Of a stretch of DNA of 33,108 nt, positions 2,212 through 33,108 are shown in pieces. Source of the DNA: Psychromonas hadalis ATCC BAA-638 (GTDB lineage Bacteria > Pseudomonadota > Gammaproteobacteria > Enterobacterales > Psychromonadaceae); NCBI RefSeq assembly GCF_000420245.1, contig NZ_ATUO01000023.1, positions 1 through 33,108 of the forward strand, read 5' to 3'. The position numbers and the translations under genes are program-made. The notes under the pieces are model-generated. The model was not told the DNA's origin. It made no database searches and saw only the letters and a program-made list of their open reading frames with translations. Within the stretch, counting starts at the first letter, position 1, and each line of letters opens with the position of its first letter.

Positions 2212-2398
2212 CGGAGGTGATGGCGAATTGAACGGCAGTTCAGGCTAATGAGCGGGTAAGCTCTGCGAACCCTTTTTTTAGCTTCGCTTGTTTTCTTTTT
2301 AAAACAAGGCAGGACTAAAGTCCTACGTCCGAAATAAGATTTGCTTTTGGACGTAAGACTTTAGTCTTGCCTGTTTGTAGCTTCAGCTTACATAAGCA
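2212..2398. repeat. REP-like cluster between purH and purD (long form plus inverted pair)
   Basis: Positions 2212-2290 hold a long-form unit with GGCGAATTGAACGGCAGTTC and GAGCGGGTAAGCTCTGCG, nearly the same as 32266-32340 and the right edge of the window. Positions 2303-2331 (GGCAGGACTAAAGTCC then TACGTCC) and 2349-2376 (GGACGTAAGACTTTAGTC) are two copies of the short palindrome facing each other, a BIME-like pair. A GCTTCAGC motif follows (2381-2388). These belong to the same family as the repeats around the RAYT gene at the right end. They would be transcribed between purH and purD. Confidence 0.8.
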
Positions 2399-11860: not shown

Positions 11861-11887
11861 GTGGACAGGACTTCAGTCCTGCTTTAG
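11861..11887 (-). repeat. Short REP-like palindrome between acs and aroQ
   Basis: CAGGACTTCAGTCCTG (11866-11881) is a 7-bp stem with a 2-nt loop, preceded by GTGGA. It matches the core of the REP family found elsewhere in the window and lies in the transcribed acs 3' region. Confidence 0.65.
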
Positions 11888-16541: not shown

Positions 16542-17054
16542 ATGATCCACAGCCAAATCAACATATTAAAACAAGCCCAAAGTTATCTGTGCTCTGTCAC
16601 TGCCTCGCAATACAATGAAATAGTTAAACCTCTGTTCATCAGCTCTGCAGGCGCGCATATACGTCATATTTTAGATCACTACCGTGCGATTATAACTGGC
16701 TTAGAAGCGGGCTTGATTGATTATGATAAACGTAGTCGTGGTGGCTGTGTCGAAACGGATATTGATGAGGCTTTAACACTGATTACTCAGATAGAAAAAT
16801 TTCTGTTATCACTTTCTCCAACACAGCTACAGCAAACCCTACAACTTTCAACCGAGGTTTGTGTTGAGAGAAAACAGGTAGAGGTAGTAGGAACAACACT
16901 TGCTCGAGAGCTTGTTTTTGTTGGTAGTCATGCGATTCACCATTATGCAATGATTGAGCAGATTTCAAAAGCGCAAAAGTTAGCCACGCCTGAGCAGTTT
17001 GGCATTGCACCTGCAACGGCTACTTTTTTGCGTAATGAGGCAAGGGTAAGTTAA
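16542..17054 (+). CDS. DinB-like metal-binding four-helix protein
   Basis: A 170-residue helical protein resembling the DinB/YfiT superfamily of small metal-binding proteins. The likely ligand histidines are in AHIRHILDHY (N-terminal helix) and SHAIHHYAMIE (about residue 130). The enzyme activity is unknown; related proteins use the metal for thiol-linked chemistry. The start at 16542 has AAGAG 9 bases upstream; an ATG at 16533 adds three residues but sits too close to it. The stop TAA overlaps the ATG of the NRDE gene (TAATG), so the pair is an operon. It is not clearly linked to the pilus genes before it, from which a large hairpin separates it. Confidence 0.75.
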   Translation: MIHSQINILKQAQSYLCSVTASQYNEIVKPLFISSAGAHIRHILDHYRAIITGLEAGLIDYDKRSRGGCVETDIDEALTLITQIEKFLLSLSPTQLQQTLQLSTEVCVERKQVEVVGTTLARELVFVGSHAIHHYAMIEQISKAQKLATPEQFGIAPATATFLRNEARVS

Positions 17055-17764
17055 TGTGTACACTAACTTATCGTTTAACGGAAATAGGTTATGAACTGTT
17101 TTTTAATCGTGATGAGCAGCATAGTCGAAGCCAAGCTCACGCACCTAAAATGGATAAACAGTTAAATGCACTCTACCCGATTGACCCACTCGGTAAAGGT
17201 ACTTGGATTGCGGTGCATCAAAGTGGTTTATCGTTAGCGTTACTAAATTATTACCAAGCACAAAAAAATAGGGTAAGTGGTAAGTTTAAAAGCCGTGGTG
17301 AAATTATATTAAAACTGCTAGAAAAAGCACCCAATGTGATAACCGTTTTAAAAACGATGCCACTTCACATTTATCAACCTTTTCAACTATGTCTATTTCC
17401 CTCGGATTTAACGCTATCAAATCAAAAGCCACGTTATTTTCAATGGGATGGTATTCATCTGACTGAATCTGAAAAAACACTCCCTATTACCTCCTCGGGT
17501 GTTGATTACCCACAAGTTTATCAAGCACGTAAAATCACCTTTAAACAGATGGTTGATGCTAATAATCCCACCAGTAAACAGCTATTAAATTACCACCAAT
17601 CACAACAGCAAGAGGGTAAACTGTCAGTGAAAATGTCACGCTCAGATGCGCAAACGGTAAGTTTAAGTTGCATCTGCGTGAGCGAGACTGTGGAATTTAG
17701 ATATATTGATTATTTAGATAAACAGCGTTATTTAGTTTCATTCCATACCAATTTCACTAATTGA
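17054..17764 (+). CDS. NRDE / TANGO2 family protein
   Basis: A 236-residue protein beginning MCTLTYRLTEIGYELFFNRD, with Cys2 at the N terminus and the NRDE motif after it. This is the mark of the TANGO2/NRDE family, which resembles Ntn hydrolases in having an exposed N-terminal Cys; its cellular job is not settled. It also shows GTWIAVHQSGLSLALLNYY, typical of the family. It is coupled to the DinB-like gene by a 1-base overlap. The last few codons (HTNFTN and stop) lie within the left end of the MITE-like element 17745-17905, so the natural C terminus may have been altered by that insertion. Confidence 0.85.
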   Translation: MCTLTYRLTEIGYELFFNRDEQHSRSQAHAPKMDKQLNALYPIDPLGKGTWIAVHQSGLSLALLNYYQAQKNRVSGKFKSRGEIILKLLEKAPNVITVLKTMPLHIYQPFQLCLFPSDLTLSNQKPRYFQWDGIHLTESEKTLPITSSGVDYPQVYQARKITFKQMVDANNPTSKQLLNYHQSQQQEGKLSVKMSRSDAQTVSLSCICVSETVEFRYIDYLDKQRYLVSFHTNFTN

Positions 17765-17905
17765 ATAGTCTAATATTACGCAGGGAAAACAGACAAGTTC
17801 AAGGCGAAAGCTGATGTAAATGGTTATTCCCTTTGCAAAGTTTTCAACGCAGAAATTGTTTGTTTTAACCAGTAAGATTGATCAGTTATTTAGTGGAGTT
17901 GGTAT
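17745..17905. mobile_element. MITE-like element between NRDE gene and slyX
   Basis: The ends are inverted: ATACCAATTTCACTAA at 17745 against TTAGTGGAGTTGGTAT ending at 17905 (14 of 16 match), with TTGA/TCAG beyond. The 161-bp interior encodes nothing credible. Its left end supplies the stop of the NRDE gene and its right end touches the slyX stop. Terminal sequences of this kind are, from memory, common in marine gammaproteobacteria; no database check was made. No clear target duplication is seen. Confidence 0.6.
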
Positions 17906-18114
17906 TAGTAATGAGGCGGGCGCATCTCAACTTGATCAATACCACCGTCATCAGGCTCTGATTCTTTTAGTTTTTCTACTAAATAGGCAACTTGTTCGGT
18001 GAGAATTTGTAATTTACGCTGTTGTTCAAAAACTTCACTGTTTAATATTTCAATATTGTCATCTTGAAAGGCAACTTTCATCTCTAACTGTTCAATACGG
18101 CTTTCTGTGGTCAT
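17905..18114 (-). CDS. slyX: SlyX family protein
   Basis: A 69-residue coiled-coil protein (72 in E. coli). MTTESRIEQLEMKVAFQDDN starts the heptad-rich region, and the C terminus ends in PPHY, the family signature. The start at 18114 is chosen by alignment; a GGAAA sequence lies just upstream, while an in-frame ATG at 18171 would begin inside the neighbouring repeat. SlyX has no settled function; it usually lies near FKBP-type isomerases, and here an FKBP gene lies 1.5 kb away. The gene fits tightly between two MITE-like elements, the stop codon abutting one and the start 20 bp from the other. Confidence 0.9.
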   Translation of the reverse strand: MTTESRIEQLEMKVAFQDDNIEILNSEVFEQQRKLQILTEQVAYLVEKLKESEPDDGGIDQVEMRPPHY

Positions 18115-18133
18115 TATTTTTCCAGTACGTTTG

Positions 18134-18396
18134 TATACCCATGTTACATCAAGATGCTTTGTCAGGCACAAGCTCGATAATCAGAACAAGGCGTAACATG
18201 AGGTAATTGTTATTCACTTTTTGAATGTTGCAACGCTGGGCTGGTTTTCGAGCTTGCGCCCCGTAGGGCGAGGAAACTTGCACCAACCTGCGTTGTTATA
18301 AAATTTCGATTTAGATCAACTATACTTCAATTTTATGCCTAGCATTTGGGCACAATTTTCCTTGCTGACTTTGTATCTTGAAGTATCATGGGTATA
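18134..18396. mobile_element. MITE-like element between slyX and WD40 gene
   Basis: A 263-bp unit with imperfect inverted ends: TATACCCATGTTACATCAAG at the left and, read in reverse, TATACCCATGATACTTCAAG at the right. The centre (about 18230-18297) has nested complementary blocks (CAACGC/GCGTTG, CGCCC gta GGGCG). No transposase is encoded. If the outer TA pairs are target bases it would fit an IS630/mariner-like TA insertion, which is an inference. The right end overlaps the 3' end of the WD40 gene and gives its last three residues and stop. Confidence 0.7.
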
Positions 18397-19372
18397 AAGG
18401 CCAGATTTCAAGAAATCCAGCGGAGCTTTCAGTGGCAATTTTGTCACCGTCCCATAATGTGGCAGAGTATACTACAGCTGTTTTCGGGCGTGTCTCTTTT
18501 CTTGGTGTCACCATCCACTTTTGTAAACTCAATCCACTTTTTACATCCCATAAACGTACCGTTTTAGTGCCATTTCCAGTCAATAACTGCTTGCCATCAT
18601 TAATAAAACGTACAGAGGAGAAAATAGATTGTCGTGCTGTGTAGATTAAACTACTTTGTAGCTCGCCGGTTTCTATATTCCAGATTTGTGATGCTTTTTG
18701 AGTATCCGCAATAAAAGCATAACGTCCTTTATCTTCTAATCTGACCATTGAAATCCGATGTTTAAAATTAAACTGTTGAATAATTTGCGCTGTTTTTGTA
18801 TTCCATAAAAAAGCACGATGGTCGTTTCCCCCAGAGAGTGCGTACAGTCCATTGGCGGACATATCAACACTGTTCACCTTTTCGGTATGAATCGGCATCT
18901 CTAATCGACGACCTGTTTTTAAATCAATATGAACTACTTTACCATTTACTTGTCCATACAAAACGTAACGCCCATTTGCAGATATTCGGATATCACGAAT
19001 GGGGGAATCGCTGACTTGATAAAAGCCAACAGATTGGCCAGTTTTGATGTCCCAAATAGCAAATTCACGTCGACTGGCAGAGAGTGCATGGCTGTTGTTT
19101 GCAGAGATGCGCACTATATAGACATCGTTATTTTCTGCATTACGATGTTGCCATTGATAAAGCAACTTATTATTGCGGTTATCCCAAAGGCCTAATCCAT
19201 GATGAATGGATGAGGTAATGGAGTAGTCTCCATTTTGTGAGATTTCAGCTGCAAATGCGCCCTCTACAGCATGTTCATATTGCTGTAATGGCGTATCTGA
19301 TTGCGAACAAGAGAAAACAAAAATGAGACTCAGCAATAAAAAAAACGATTTTAAAGGTAATTTTAATAACAT
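18386..19372 (-). CDS. WD40-repeat lipoprotein
   Basis: A 328-residue protein with a signal peptide MLLKLPLKSFFLLLSLIFVF and a Cys at SCSQS, a plausible lipobox though with Phe at -2, so a lipid-anchored envelope protein is likely. About six to seven WD-type repeats follow, with ends such as LGLWDN, FAIWDIKTG, FLWNTKT, SQIWNIETG and VRLWDVKSG, which should form a beta propeller for protein contacts. Function unknown. It lies beside an FKBP-type isomerase gene (divergent) and slyX, hinting at envelope protein folding. The final residues LYP and stop come from the MITE-like element 18134-18396. Confidence 0.8.
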   Translation of the reverse strand: MLLKLPLKSFFLLLSLIFVFSCSQSDTPLQQYEHAVEGAFAAEISQNGDYSITSSIHHGLGLWDNRNNKLLYQWQHRNAENNDVYIVRISANNSHALSASRREFAIWDIKTGQSVGFYQVSDSPIRDIRISANGRYVLYGQVNGKVVHIDLKTGRRLEMPIHTEKVNSVDMSANGLYALSGGNDHRAFLWNTKTAQIIQQFNFKHRISMVRLEDKGRYAFIADTQKASQIWNIETGELQSSLIYTARQSIFSSVRFINDGKQLLTGNGTKTVRLWDVKSGLSLQKWMVTPRKETRPKTAVVYSATLWDGDKIATESSAGFLEIWPLYP

Positions 19373-19441
19373 TCGATAATTAACTTTTGGTGAAAATAAT
19401 CATTAAGGTTAGTATATACCAACAGATTTTGATAGTGACTT

Positions 19442-19542
19442 AGGAATCGTTACACAATAACTTGCGCTAAATCGTTTTCAAAAAGCCTGAAATGACTGGT
19501 TATTTTGAAAACAAAAGCGCAAGTAATTTTGAAGCCGATTCT
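19442..19542 (+). repeat. 101-bp palindromic dispersed element, copy 2 (FKBP leader)
   Basis: Same 101-bp unit as 265-365, same orientation, with four differences seen by hand. It begins AGGAATCG and ends CCGATTCT and folds through CTTGCGCT/AGCGCAAG and the GTTTTCAAAA/TTTTGAAAAC arms. It ends 45 bp before the FKBP gene start, so as at purH it lies just upstream of a rightward gene. Confidence 0.8.
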
Positions 19543-19587
19543 TAATGTTAACTATCAGCAAGTTTAATATAAATATTTGGAGTAACA

Positions 19588-20331
19588 ATGAAAAACGTAT
19601 TTAAGGTTTCTTTATTAGCTGCCGCTGTTGCATTTACAGTGGGTTGTAATGAAAAAACACCAGAAACAAACGTTTCTTTTGAAGATAGCCAAGAAAAAGC
19701 GGCTTACGCAATTGGTGCATCATTTGCGAGCTATGTGAATACCACGCTTGAGAAACAAGCTGAGTTTGGTATGGCGTTAGATAAAGAGATTATCTTAAAA
19801 GGCATTTCTGACAAGTTACGCGATAAATCACAAATGACGGAAGAAGAGATGATTGAAACACTTAAAGCATATGATGCTGAAGTGAAAATAGCCGCTGAAA
19901 AGCAGCAAGTAGAAAAAATTGCAAAAGCGGCTGAAACTGCCAAAACTTTTTTAGCTGATAACGCTAAACTTGAAGGTGTAACGGTTACAGAGTCTGGCTT
20001 ACAGTATTCTGTTATCACTAAAGTAGATGGTCCTAAACCAACAGCAGAAGATACTGTTTCAGTTCATTATGTAGGTACTTTAGTTGACGGTACTGAGTTT
20101 GATAGTTCTGTGAAACGTGGTCAACCTGCTAAATTCCCACTTAACCGTGTTATTGCGGGTTGGACTGAAGGTGTTCAGTTAATGAGTGTTGGCGAGAAAT
20201 ACAAGTTTGTTATTCCTGCTGAGCTAGGATACGGCGAACAAGGTGCAGGCTCTATTCCTCCTGGTTCAACACTTATTTTTGAAGTGGAATTATTAGAAAT
20301 TGTAGCGGTTGAAACGCCTGCAGCTGAGTAA
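19588..20331 (+). CDS. FKBP-type peptidyl-prolyl isomerase, FkpA-like lipoprotein
   Basis: A 247-residue folding helper of the cell envelope that turns prolyl bonds. The signal peptide MKNVFKVSLLAAAVAFTVGC ends in a lipobox (TVGC), so the protein should be lipid-anchored, unlike soluble periplasmic FkpA of E. coli. The helical dimerisation domain (about residues 30-125, QEKAAYAIGASFASYVNTTL) is followed by the FKBP domain (about 140-240) with VSVHYVGTLVDGTEFDSS, FPLNRVIAGWTEGVQLM, YGEQGAGSIPPGSTLIFEVE. GGAG lies upstream of the ATG. The slyX gene nearby matches the classic slyX-fkpA neighbourhood. Confidence 0.93.
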   Translation: MKNVFKVSLLAAAVAFTVGCNEKTPETNVSFEDSQEKAAYAIGASFASYVNTTLEKQAEFGMALDKEIILKGISDKLRDKSQMTEEEMIETLKAYDAEVKIAAEKQQVEKIAKAAETAKTFLADNAKLEGVTVTESGLQYSVITKVDGPKPTAEDTVSVHYVGTLVDGTEFDSSVKRGQPAKFPLNRVIAGWTEGVQLMSVGEKYKFVIPAELGYGEQGAGSIPPGSTLIFEVELLEIVAVETPAAE

Positions 20332-20351
20332 TCTGAACGAAGGCTTCTGTT

Positions 20352-20409
20352 GGACGTAGGACTTCAGTCCTGCCTTGTTCACTATTAGCGTAGCTAAAGC
20401 AACACGTCC
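20352..20409. repeat. REP-like composite unit after the FKBP gene
   Basis: A 58-bp unit bounded by GGACGT and ACGTCC. It holds the palindrome GGACTTCAGTCC and the second motif TAGCTAAAGC. In reverse it is close to the unit at 26932-26996. It lies about 20 bp after the FKBP stop. Confidence 0.75.
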
Positions 20410-26931: not shown

Positions 26932-27060
26932 ATTCGGACGTGCTGCTTTAGCTTCGCCCTTGGTCACAAGGCCGGACTAAAGTCCTACGTCCGAATGATT
27001 TTTGTTTTGAACGTGCTGCTTTAGCTGCGCCAATAGTGAACAATACAGAATACAGCACTA
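26932..27060. repeat. REP-like composite unit and a decayed second copy
   Basis: 26932-26996 is bounded by perfect inverted ATTCGGACGT/ACGTCCGAAT and holds GCTGCTTTAGCTTCGCC and GGCCGGACTAAAGTCC. From 27009 a second copy (GAACGTGCTGCTTTAGCTGC) follows and decays towards ACTACGT. The rest of the adhE to AI-2E gap (26592-26931, 27061-27169) shows only the FNR/ArcA-like sites and no gene. Confidence 0.8.
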
Positions 27061-29165: not shown

Positions 29166-29190
29166 CTGCTGCGCTTTTGACTTTTGTTTT

Positions 29191-29430
29191 GGAAGTGAGG
29201 CTTCAGCCTTGCGTGTTTTGACTTTTGTTTTCAGCAAACAAGGCAGGACTAAAGTCCCACTTCCGTATGTAGCGGCTGCTTCGGCGGAACAAGGCAGGAC
29301 TAAAGTCCCACTTCCGTGAACTGCTGCTTCAGTGGTAGTGGTTTAAAACAAGGCAGGACTAAAGCCCCACTTCCGTGGAACTGCTGCTTCAGCTGCGGCG
29401 GTTTTGGAAGTGAGGGCGAACTGAACTGGC
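29191..29430. repeat. REP array upstream of pilA (GGAAGT type)
   Basis: One short-form hairpin GGAAGTGAGGCTTCAGCC (29191-29208) is followed by three direct copies of GGCAGGACTAAAGTCC/ACTTCC (about 29237-29265, 29288-29316, 29347-29375; the third reads AAAGCCCC) separated by GCTGCTTC-type motifs. A broken long form starts at 29405 (GGAAGTGAGGGCGAACTGAA) and is lost after 29430. Spacing between cores is about 50-60 bp. Confidence 0.85.
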
Positions 29431-30126: not shown

Positions 30127-30561
30127 ATGAAAAAAGTACAAAGTGGTTTTACATTGATCGAACTATTAATCGTTATCGCGATTATCGGTATTTTGGCGGC
30201 GGTTGCGTTGCCTGCTTATCAAACTTATACAAAAAAAGCTGAGTTTACTAATTTGACAACAGCAGTTGGTGCAGTTAAATCAGCTGTTGAAATTTGTGCT
30301 CAAATAGAAGCTTCAACTCCTGCTACATTTAAAACGAACTGTATTGCTGGTCAAGGTGGCGTTCCTAGTAATACAACTGCTTCAATTGCAGTTACAACTG
30401 GGACTGCAGCTCCAACAGGTGCTACTGCTGGTAGTGATATATACTTATCCTCTAAAATTTCAAGCCCAATGGGAAGCCTAGGTGCCAACTCTACATATAT
30501 TCTTGGTGCAAATTATTCAAGTGGAGCAGTTACTTGGGTTATTGATGAAATTATGAACTAA
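30127..30561 (+). CDS. pilA: Type IV major pilin PilA
   Basis: A 144-residue prepilin. The leader MKKVQSG is cut before Phe8; [20 protein letters not shown] is the canonical pilin helix with Glu5. The mature part is Thr/Ser/Gly/Ala-rich. Odd: the only two Cys (57 and 72) lie in the first half, at the alpha/beta loop, and there is no C-terminal disulfide-bound D region, so the fold at the fibre surface differs from classic type IVa pilins. AGGA lies before the ATG. pilB follows 5 bases after its stop, so they form an operon. Confidence 0.95.
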
Positions 30562-30566
30562 ATATA

Positions 30567-32258
30567 GTGTCCAATCATAATATCAGCGGCCTTGCTTCTA
30601 GCTTGGCCGCTCGCGGTTTACTGCCCCTCGAACAACTGCAACAGATCACCACTTCTGCAATCAATGAAAAAAAATCATTGGTTGCTTATTTAGTTGAAAA
30701 TAACTTTATTGCCAGTTTAGCGCTGGCGCAGTTTTGCGAAGCGGAATATGGTATTCCTCTCTTAGACTCTGACACCCTCGAACTTGATAATATTCCCGAT
30801 AAGTTTATTAATGAGAAACTAATAGAGAAGCATCATGCCCTGCCTGTTTATGTACAACAGAAAACCCTCTATATCGCTATGTCTGACCCGACCAATGTCG
30901 GCGCACTGGAAGACTTTGGTTTTAGCTTTGCCATGCACACCGAAGCGTTATTGGTGGAAGAGACCTTTTTAAAAGCAGCCATCGAAAAAATCTTAGAGAG
31001 TGAAGAAGAGACACTCGGTGAGATGGACATGGGGGACATCGACGACATTGAAATTGATGAATCCGATTCCCGTTTAGACGAAGCACAAGGCGTAGACGAT
31101 GACGCGCCCATTGTTAAATATATTAATGGTATTTTAATCGATGCAGTGCGCAAAGGGGCATCAGATTTACACTTTGAACCTTACGAAAAAAAATATCGCA
31201 TCCGTTTCCGTATCGATGGCATCTTAAAAGAGATAGCCACCCCCCCTGTTAATTTAGCTAACCGCTTTTCCGCACGTTTAAAAGTCATGTCAAAACTCGA
31301 CATTGCCGAACGTCGTTTACCACAAGATGGGCGTATCAAACTTAAAATTTCCAGTAAACGCAGTATTGACCTGCGTGTCAGTACCTTGCCCACTATGTGG
31401 GGCGAAAAAGTGGTGATGCGTATTTTAGACTCATCGGCAGCTGCCCTGAATATTGATAAGTTAGGTTACAGTGATGAGCAGAAAGCCAAATATTTAGCGG
31501 CATTAGACAAGCCACAAGGCATGATATTAATCACCGGTCCGACAGGCAGTGGTAAAACAGTTTCCCTTTATACGGGGCTTAATATTCTTAATACCGTTGA
31601 ACGTAATATCTCCACGGCGGAAGATCCTGTTGAGATAAATTTAACCGGTATTAACCAAGTACAAATTAACATTAAAGCGGGTCTGACCTTTGCTTCTGCA
31701 TTGCGCTCCTTTTTACGCCAAGATCCCGACATCGTCATGGTCGGTGAAATACGCGATTTAGAAACCGCAGAAATTGCCATAAAAGCGGCTCAAACAGGTC
31801 ACTTGGTATTATCGACCTTGCATACAAACTCCGCTTCTGAAACATTAACCCGTCTATTAAACATGGGCGTACCCGCTTTTAATATCGCCTCATCAGTTTC
31901 GCTGATTATCGCGCAACGTTTAGCGCGTCGTTTATGCCCAGAGTGCAAAGCTATCGACCCATACAGTGATGCCGAGCTTAAAACCATTGGTTTTAGTGTC
32001 AGTGATGTTGCAGCAGGTTTTACGCTATACAAACCGATTGGTTGTAAAAAATGCAGTGATGGTTATAAAGGCCGTGTGGGCATTTATGAAATAATGGTGA
32101 TGACAGATAATATTGGCCATATCATTCTTAATGACGGCAACGCCATGCAGATAGCCACTACCGCGGAAGCAGAGGGGATGTTTACCCTACGCCAATCCGC
32201 CCTGCACAAAGCCATAGAGGGCGTGACCAGTTTGAAAGAGGTAACGAGGGTTACTTAG
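30567..32258 (+). CDS. pilB: Type IV pilus assembly ATPase PilB
   Basis: A 563-residue hexameric ATPase that drives pilus extension at the inner membrane. The N-terminal MshEN/T2SSE_N region (about 1-140) precedes an acidic linker (143-180, [15 protein letters not shown]). The core has ASDLHFEP, Walker A GPTGSGKT (324-331), the Asp box STAEDPVE, Walker [11 protein letters not shown], the His box [11 protein letters not shown] and the zinc-type Cys pairs CPEC and CKKC. The start is GTG, only 5 bases after pilA, with no clear ribosome binding site, suggesting coupling to pilA. pilC and pilD, its usual followers, are not in the next 850 bp. Confidence 0.96.
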
Positions 32259-32263
32259 TGTTT

Positions 32264-32475
32264 TCGGAAGTGAGGGCGAATTGAACGGCAGTTCAGGCAA
32301 TGAGCGGGTAAGCTCTGCGAACCCTTTTTCAGCCTTGCGTGTCGGAGGTGAGGCTTTAGCCTTGCGCTTTTGACTTTTGTTTTTAAAACAAGGCAGGACT
32401 AAAGTCCCGCTTCCGTATGGAACTGTTGCTTCAGCTGCGGCAACTTCAACAAGGCAGGACTAAAGCCCTACTTCC
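32264..32475. repeat. REP cluster before the RAYT gene
   Basis: A long form (32266-32340) is followed at once by a short form CGGAGGTGAGGCTTTAGCC (from 32343), then two copies of GGCAGGACTAAAG followed by TCCC or CCCT (about 32387-32416 and 32448-32475) with a GCTTCAGCTGC motif between. Comparing the long and short forms shows a 53-nt block (32276-32328) inserted within the hairpin. The cluster starts 6 bp after the pilB stop. Confidence 0.85.
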
Positions 32476-32499
32476 TAATATTATGTTATAAGGTAAGTT

Positions 32500-33011
32500 A
32501 TGAAACATACGCACTTGCCACATATTGATAACCTTACTTATTATCAGTTTATCACTTTTAGAACCTATGATAGTACAGACTCTTTTGTTGCTGGTTTAGC
32601 CACTAAAAGTAATCGAAAATTGCAATTAGCAATGGATGAATACCTCGATTGCTCTTTAAAAGGTGCTTATCTTAAGGGTAATGTTTAATTTGTTTGTCTA
32701 CTCAGCTCAAAAATGCAGACAAAAAAGATTATGAATTATGTGCGTTTGCTATTATGCCCAATCATGTACATCTACTATTAAAACCATTAATTTCATTGCC
32801 TTTAATGATGCAAAAAATGAAAGGAAAAAGTAGTAAGCAGATTAATGAACTATTATTGTTATCGGGCTCTTTGTGGGCGAGAAGTTATTACGACCGAGCA
32901 ATTAGGTCGCAAAAACATTTCGATGTGACCTATCAATATATAAAGAATAACCCGTTAAAGCTTTGTGAAGATGCTGATAGTGAATTCAGATTTTATGGCT
33001 GTTTTGAGTGA
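32500..33011 (+). pseudogene. REP-associated tyrosine transposase (RAYT, IS200-like), frameshifted
   Basis: A Y1-type HUH transposase split over two frames. The first part (32500-32688) starts MKHTHLPHIDNLTYYQFITF and runs to a TAA; the second, in another frame, has the metal-binding HUH motif AFAIMPNHVHLLLKP and the C-terminal YYDRAIRSQKHFDVTYQYIK with NNPLKL. Together they give about 170 residues, the usual RAYT size. One indel near 32677-32690 separates them; there is no slippery run there, so programmed frameshifting is unlikely and a broken gene is more likely. REP units flank it on both sides, the arrangement expected of the transposase that spreads them. Confidence 0.85.
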
Positions 33012-33013
33012 TA

Positions 33014-33108
33014 TTTAAAACAAGGCAGGACTAAAGTCCCACTTCCATTTGGAACTGCTGCCGGAAGTGAGGGCGAATTTAACGGCAGTTCAGGCAATGA
33101 GCGGGTAA
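33014..33108. repeat. REP units after the RAYT gene, cut by window end
   Basis: A copy of GGCAGGACTAAAGTCC followed by CACTTCC (33019-33046) and the start of a long form (from 33063, GGAAGTGAGGGCGAATTTAA then GAGCGGGTAA) run off the right edge. With 32264-32475 they bracket the RAYT gene. Confidence 0.8.

Follow-up and report, generated by a model that had tools for sequence, protein, structure and literature searches.

A Psychromonas REPtron with a broken or misread RAYT gene, REP pairs aboard a 243-bp MITE and a structured module in REP loops

The window analysed here is the entire contig C23 of Psychromonas hadalis ATCC BAA-638 (genome G000), 33108 bases long, from an assembly of 3.98 Mb in 351 contigs. 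Towards its right end lie pilA (30127–30561) and, on the plus strand, pilB (30567–32258), followed by a run of palindromes, two open reading frames in different frames, and further palindromes up to the end of the contig. The pilB frame is intact (563 aa) and its product is 91% identical to PilB of Psychromonas sp. Urea-02u-13 (G011); in both genomes the next gene is a RAYT. The right border of the window is set by the assembly, since the contig ends within the second REP copy that bears an insert in its loop. No orthologue of pilC was found in the P. hadalis assembly (best match 33%); the gene is present in 23 of the 23 other Psychromonas genomes, at 66–100% identity. The sequence found 3' of pilC in G011 corresponds here to window positions 17905–20335, 10 kb before pilA, where it adjoins another ORF (the regions concerned are 17039–20335 and 32258–33108). 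The absence of pilC and the displaced downstream sequence reflect either an assembly gap or a rearrangement in which pilC was lost.

The first of the two frames (ORF1, 32500–32688, plus strand) starts with ATG and encodes 62 aa of a RAYT N-terminus, matching the G011 relative at 35 of 62 aligned residues. The C-terminal piece (32682–33011, plus strand, in another frame) contains the HUH motif PNHVHLLL and the stretch TYQYIKNNP, and shares 78 of 105 residues with the same relative; ORF2 itself comprises 105 aa (32694–33011), and its frame is open from 32682 already. As ORF1 ends at 32688, the frame change can be placed within 32682–32688. ORF2 carries the Y1_Tnp/HUH domain of a RAYT (Pfam PF01797, E 1.2e-12, 48.5 bits against a cut-off of 23), while its score with the NCBIfam model REP_Tyr_transpos (NF047646) is 58.7 bits, below the cut-off of 80; the intact G011 relative likewise stays under that cut-off, at 56.5 of 80 bits. 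ORF1 alone has no match in the Pfam or NCBIfam library. Aligned to six intact relatives, both pieces tile one protein without internal stops, so that, with the two different frames and the Y1_Tnp match, the view taken in an initial annotation of an IS200-like HUH protein split by one frame change holds. That annotation had also pointed to a YYDRAIR motif, which is probably not the site of the catalytic tyrosine: in an alignment of the G011 relative with the structure 2f4f, it is the second tyrosine of TYQYIKNN that pairs with Y121, which we take to be the catalytic residue. When the G011 protein is compared with solved structures, the top matches are IS200-type transposases (2f4f, E 5e-4), and TnpAREP is a weak match (4er8, E 0.67). 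RAYT is described as a single-copy gene in the available text of PMC8049555, and the P. hadalis assembly has one close RAYT locus, flanked by REPs that populate the genome; G008 (SP041) and G021 each have two such loci.

A RAYT protein search of 24 Psychromonas genomes gave matches in 14, with close ones (≥82 bits) in 12, P. hadalis included. The best relative is that of G011, an intact gene of 172 codons from its ATG with 74% identity over the C-terminal piece. Twelve of the 13 other close loci are open from end to end; the remaining one (L052, on contig C67 of G008) is a second G008 copy with an in-frame stop, the open copy of that genome lying on its contig C20. Palindromic repeats, differing between genomes, flank all 12 of the relative loci that were read by eye, L052 being the one close locus outside this reading. 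The layout of a RAYT within its own REP source locus, which the initial annotation had recognised here, is thus also that of 12 of the 13 close relatives. The gene order in G011 is pilA-pilB-RAYT-pilC, and of the 23 genomes that have a pilC orthologue, G011 alone has a detected RAYT in the pilB–pilC gap, which there measures 1097 nt; none was detected in the gaps of the other 22 Psychromonas (24–480 nt), and in the flanks examined neither pilB nor pilC adjoins a relative from any other genome. Because those 22 gaps have no detected RAYT, the gene and its REPs probably entered the pilB–pilC gap on the branch of P. hadalis and G011.

The substitution pattern bears on the age of the break. Differences between P. 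hadalis and G011 at the three codon positions number 22/11/33 and 24/12/54 for the two pieces, the third position being the commonest, and residues unique to P. hadalis as against those unique to G011 number 6 versus 13, 9 versus 15 and 7 versus 8 with three outgroups, so that there is no excess on the P. hadalis branch. In a gene long dead the opposite would be expected; since the pieces have no extra decay, the break appears to be recent, or a misread. The second of these, a sequencing or assembly error in a strain whose actual RAYT is unbroken, we judge somewhat unlikely: the frame-change site lies outside any long homopolymer, the adjoining pilB is intact at 563 aa, and broken RAYTs exist elsewhere in the genus, as the in-frame stop of the second G008 copy attests, even if an error would fit with a gene that is otherwise clean and free of internal stops against its intact relatives, that keeps its HUH motif on a branch that is not accelerated, and that ends 97 bases from the contig end. 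Programmed frameshifting, which would join both pieces into a functional product, seems very improbable. The frames do overlap by only a few bases, and both are still conserved, but inspection by eye found no X-XXY-YYZ slippery heptamer in 32680–32691, and none of the 13 other close loci (≥82 bits, 11 genomes) has a frame change: 12 have a single uninterrupted frame, and in the one on G008 C67 the lesion is an in-frame stop.

The initial annotation had proposed looking for an intact paralogue. Searches of the 351-contig draft with Y1_Tnp and REP_Tyr_transpos yielded no intact close paralogue. The other matches were rejected as close copies: those on C65, C33 and C13 are of IS200 type, judging from their sequences, that on C2 has 251 aa and 29% identity, and those on C53, C192, C224 and C76 are weak or partial. 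A second RAYT could be hidden in gaps of the draft, as several of its 351 contigs end in these repeats.

The palindromes around the gene were said in the initial annotation to be scattered through the window, and they are: the REP core GGACTTYAGTCC occurs eight times in the window and not once in 100 dinucleotide shuffles, which rules out palindromes arising by chance. Read by eye, a unit consists of a GTAG or GTGG tag followed by GACTTTAGTC, with a TTTA or TTCA loop. Between pilB and RAYT there are a REP hairpin with a structured module in its loop (32265–32341, plus strand; module 32275–32326), a plain hairpin of the variant GTGAGGCTTTAGCCTTGC (32344–32365, plus), a plain hairpin with the perfect core GGACTTTAGTCC (32387–32414, minus; core 32396–32407), a diverged hairpin GGAACTGTTGCTTCAGCTGCGGCAAC (32419–32444, plus) and a plain hairpin with an imperfect core (32448–32475, minus). 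On the 3' side of RAYT follow a plain hairpin (33019–33047, minus; perfect core 33028–33039) and the second module-bearing REP, cut by the contig end (33062–33108, plus). Further away the window holds a third module-bearing REP (2212–2290, plus; module 2222–2274), plain REPs at 2303–2338 (minus; perfect core 2312–2323), 20344–20379 (plus; perfect core 20359–20370) and 26966–26992 (minus; perfect core 26974–26985), a perfect core at 11868–11879 (plus), and a REP cluster upstream of pilA (29182–29426, unstranded; cores 29246–29257 and 29297–29308).

REPs of this family are found throughout the genome and are specific to a lineage. Perfect cores number 79 in P. hadalis, 54 in G011 and 48 in P. 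antarctica DSM 10704 (G001), with three or fewer in each of the other 21 genomes, and a reversed-core control gives none in P. hadalis and 0–3 across genomes. The units are therefore common to the rest of the genome, on which the idea of a source locus hinged. With a GTAG-like tag, a short stem and loop and a high copy number (79 perfect cores) they belong to the GTAG superfamily of REPs; the arms vary between species, and the RAYT gene is kept. REPtrons, in which a RAYT/TnpAREP gene is flanked by REP or BIME, are described for E. coli, Stenotrophomonas and Marinomonas in the accessible portion of PMC8266576, and the present locus resembles them in its HUH Y1 protein inside its own hairpins and in the GTAG or GTGG that precedes these. 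The TTTA loop found here is shared with the Marinomonas REP, whose cleavage depends on T12, T13 and A15 according to the same excerpt (PMC8266576). The locus thus belongs to a known kind, the REPtron, its RAYT being either freshly broken or misread; it differs from the REPtrons covered by that part of PMC8266576 in its broken frame, its site in the pilB–pilC gap and the module of about 53 nt in some REP loops. As in the REPINs of PMC3116915 there are inverted REP pairs, and as in the long-loop GTAG repeats of PMC3733652, with 9–15 bp loops and inner paired regions of up to 27 bp, loop size varies; the systems presented in the available text of those two papers are unlike ours with respect to the loop module of about 53 nt, conserved across a genus, and the inverted pair aboard a MITE (PMC3116915, PMC3733652).

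The module, of about 53 nt within the REP loop, consists of GCGAATT, a stem with a GNNA loop, and then ATGAGC-GGNN-RA-GCTCTGCG-N-NNCC. Its structure is conserved: in 35 copies, chosen for diversity from 71 distinct modules (alignment A4; alignment A2 holds 21 of 29 sequences), 95.9% of cells are paired as against 83.2% after shuffling, and the covariation score is 0.407 versus 0.152, with 0 of 500 shuffles as high and slid controls of at most 0.095. For the outer REP stem the score is 0.633 versus 0.281 shuffled (slid controls at most 0.263). Part of this score may reflect shared descent, because the two of five measures that are least inflated by relatedness, pair changes on both sides and further pair types, do not clearly beat the shuffles: they are reached in 49 and 81 of 500 for the module, in 198 and 399 for the outer stem, and in 134 and 499 for the whole structure. 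Changes on both sides are seen in stem 1 and in the GGNN/NNCC stem. In the crossing GAGC/GCTC stem just one side changes, and a pseudoknot through it is possible, without covariation support. Folded singly, six module-bearing REPs have mostly unremarkable energies (z −2.47 to 0.20). Duplex-energy tests of the module flanks yielded no clear signal: a single comparison gave −7.36 versus −6.68 shuffled, and true arms did not separate from genome-swapped ones (−5.81 versus −5.94 over 98 flanks, with 6 of 98 beyond the 10% point). Rfam covariance models gave no match to the window modules up to E 5, and four further loci yielded no more than two mir-471 matches (E 1.6, 21.4 of 80 bits) at the edge of module copies in locus L137 and on the opposite strand, so that nothing rises above chance or reaches the gathering score of a family.

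Among the matches listed, the module model finds its target in 23 of 24 Psychromonas genomes, all but G009, of 1.7 Mb, with faint matches in two of the 23 (G019, 6.4e-8; G020, 1.8e-6); a first model that included the REP arms matched 21 of 24 (again among the matches listed). Outside the genus there are weak matches in 10 of 370 genomes sampled from the order, among the matches listed, the best at 4.7e-6 in a genome with at least three, and at least one in each of the other nine, copy numbers per genome being lower bounds throughout. REPs are not its only host: when 106 distinct copies (from 143 matches, at loci that were chosen and not random) were sorted by simple flank rules, 68 lay in REP-like hairpins, 10 in copies of the 5S rRNA 3' end and 9 in TTTAGCAA repeats, with 19 unsorted. 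In G007 the native 5S reads GTAGG-TCATCGCC and the repeats read GTAGG-module-CATCGCC. A plasmid search with the REP and module at 32265–32341 gave no match, nor did a pattern scan of viral contigs for the module core. Our literature searches on Psychromonas palindromic repeats, 5S inserts or repeats, MITEs with REPs and RAYT loss found no description of the module; in the accessible text of PMC5893861 'palindromic' and 'repeats' occur in the context of CRISPR only.

Foreign elements within REPs have precedents. IS110-type elements are insertion sequences that enter REPs. An insertion sequence found in REPs is ISPpu9, from which, as far as the available part of PMC8450116 goes, the module differs in being non-coding, about 53 nt long and also present in 5S-derived and other repeats. 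The module may be viewed as a sub-element that would have been exchanged between unrelated hairpin repeats. A bolder and, in our estimation, unlikely proposal is that Psychromonas has in it a non-coding mobile element in its own right, single-stranded when it moves, which resides in the loops of other hairpins (REPs, 5S rRNA 3' ends, TTTAGCAA repeats), enters them beside a GTAG-like foot and relies on an HUH transposase, for instance RAYT, acting in trans; this would make it a parasite of REPs, themselves parasites.

Many REPs of P. hadalis reside in a second kind of mobile element. This element of 243 bp, with inverted ends CAGGGnAAACGGGTTTAAA and an inverted REP pair in its middle, is found at C197:12–254 (L077), at C42:26661–26903 (L079) and on other contigs, several of which end inside copies; C130 and C137 may be the two halves of one copy. 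The genome has 15 matches of at least 115 nt at 97–100% identity, corresponding to about ten sites once contig ends that share a flank are counted together, and others at 73–90%. Target duplications of 9–10 bp are visible in 9 of 26 rows, at 7 distinct sites; this count leaves out L099, L102 and REP-only matches, and many of the remaining rows stop at a contig end, where no duplication can be seen. In L089 and L090, which are older but full-length, there is none. Terminal inverted repeats, target duplications and several near-identical copies make the element a MITE. ISAs1-like ends have CAGGG and 8–10 bp duplications. From MITEs with such ends the element differs in its internal REP pair and in that no autonomous parent with matching ends was found: ISAs1-type transposase pieces (PF13808) occur at five places in the genome, the MITE end is absent from all five loci at up to 5 mismatches, and three of these show ends CAGGGC(G/A)GATCGTGC, so that these five pieces are rejected as the parent. 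Among the 24 Psychromonas genomes, matches to the MITE are confined to P. hadalis and G011, those of the latter comprising the REP part plus one end.

Perfect cores lie inside MITE copies in 35 of 79 cases, 26 of them as pairs, or in 29 of 73 when four contig ends repeating another contig's copy are disregarded. The initial annotation had concluded that a dead gene leaves the REP family two possibilities, to be frozen or to depend on another copy; this choice is incomplete, as carriage within the MITE constitutes a third spreading route. Because the inverted REP pair sits inside the MITE, REPs may also have spread passively, and because the copies with REP pairs are 97–100% identical, additions by this route were probably recent. 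It is these recent additions that speak against a family that is simply frozen, with REPs persisting and decaying after RAYT loss and the MITE copies a side show, a possibility that we regard as real but rather doubtful. Freezing of REPs after RAYT inactivation is a published model (PMC3686654, from the portion available), and it is consistent with module numbers in genomes poor in RAYT: G007 has no NF047646 match and at least 27 module matches, those read lying in 5S-derived repeats, and G016 has NF047646 matches of about 31 bits only and at least 67 module matches. As these genomes carry many copies, RAYT seems unneeded for the persistence of the module.

Taken as a whole, the data are in our opinion probably best explained by a Psychromonas REPtron whose RAYT frame was recently broken, whose REPs have also spread by MITE, and whose loop module is exchanged among repeats. 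The intact RAYT, a predicted single-strand transposase, would have bound GTAG- or GTGG-tagged hairpins and copied them, until the frame change ended or paused this copying in recent times; afterwards or in parallel, REPs would have been carried passively aboard the 243-bp MITE, moved by a cut-and-paste transposase. New to us in this are the MITE route and the loop module, both present as sequence, with mechanisms that we infer. REP families are usually ascribed to RAYT alone, and in the present genome, whose RAYT is broken, a recently active MITE carries REP pairs. The spreading of REPs thereby becomes separable from the question of RAYT, which a comparison of strains can test, and passage by MITE would offer a way round the freezing of REPs that follows RAYT inactivation. 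The module, structure-conserved DNA in 23 of 24 genomes of the genus among the matches listed and in three kinds of repeat, could show through its spread how short hairpins gain inserts.

Some minor observations concern the repeats that host the module and the window at large. In G007, locus L137 (1051–1985) is an array of truncated 5S rRNA ends with the module, beside a complete 5S gene, and in G006 a truncated 5S rRNA end carrying the module lies at 740–818 of L134. A larger TTTAGCAA repeat with several hairpins carries the module in G002, G004, G005, G011, G012 and G015 (L132, L209, L211, L129, L207). Within the window itself, a direct repeat of 104 nt, 95% identical, is found at 262–365 and 19439–19542, 19 kb apart.
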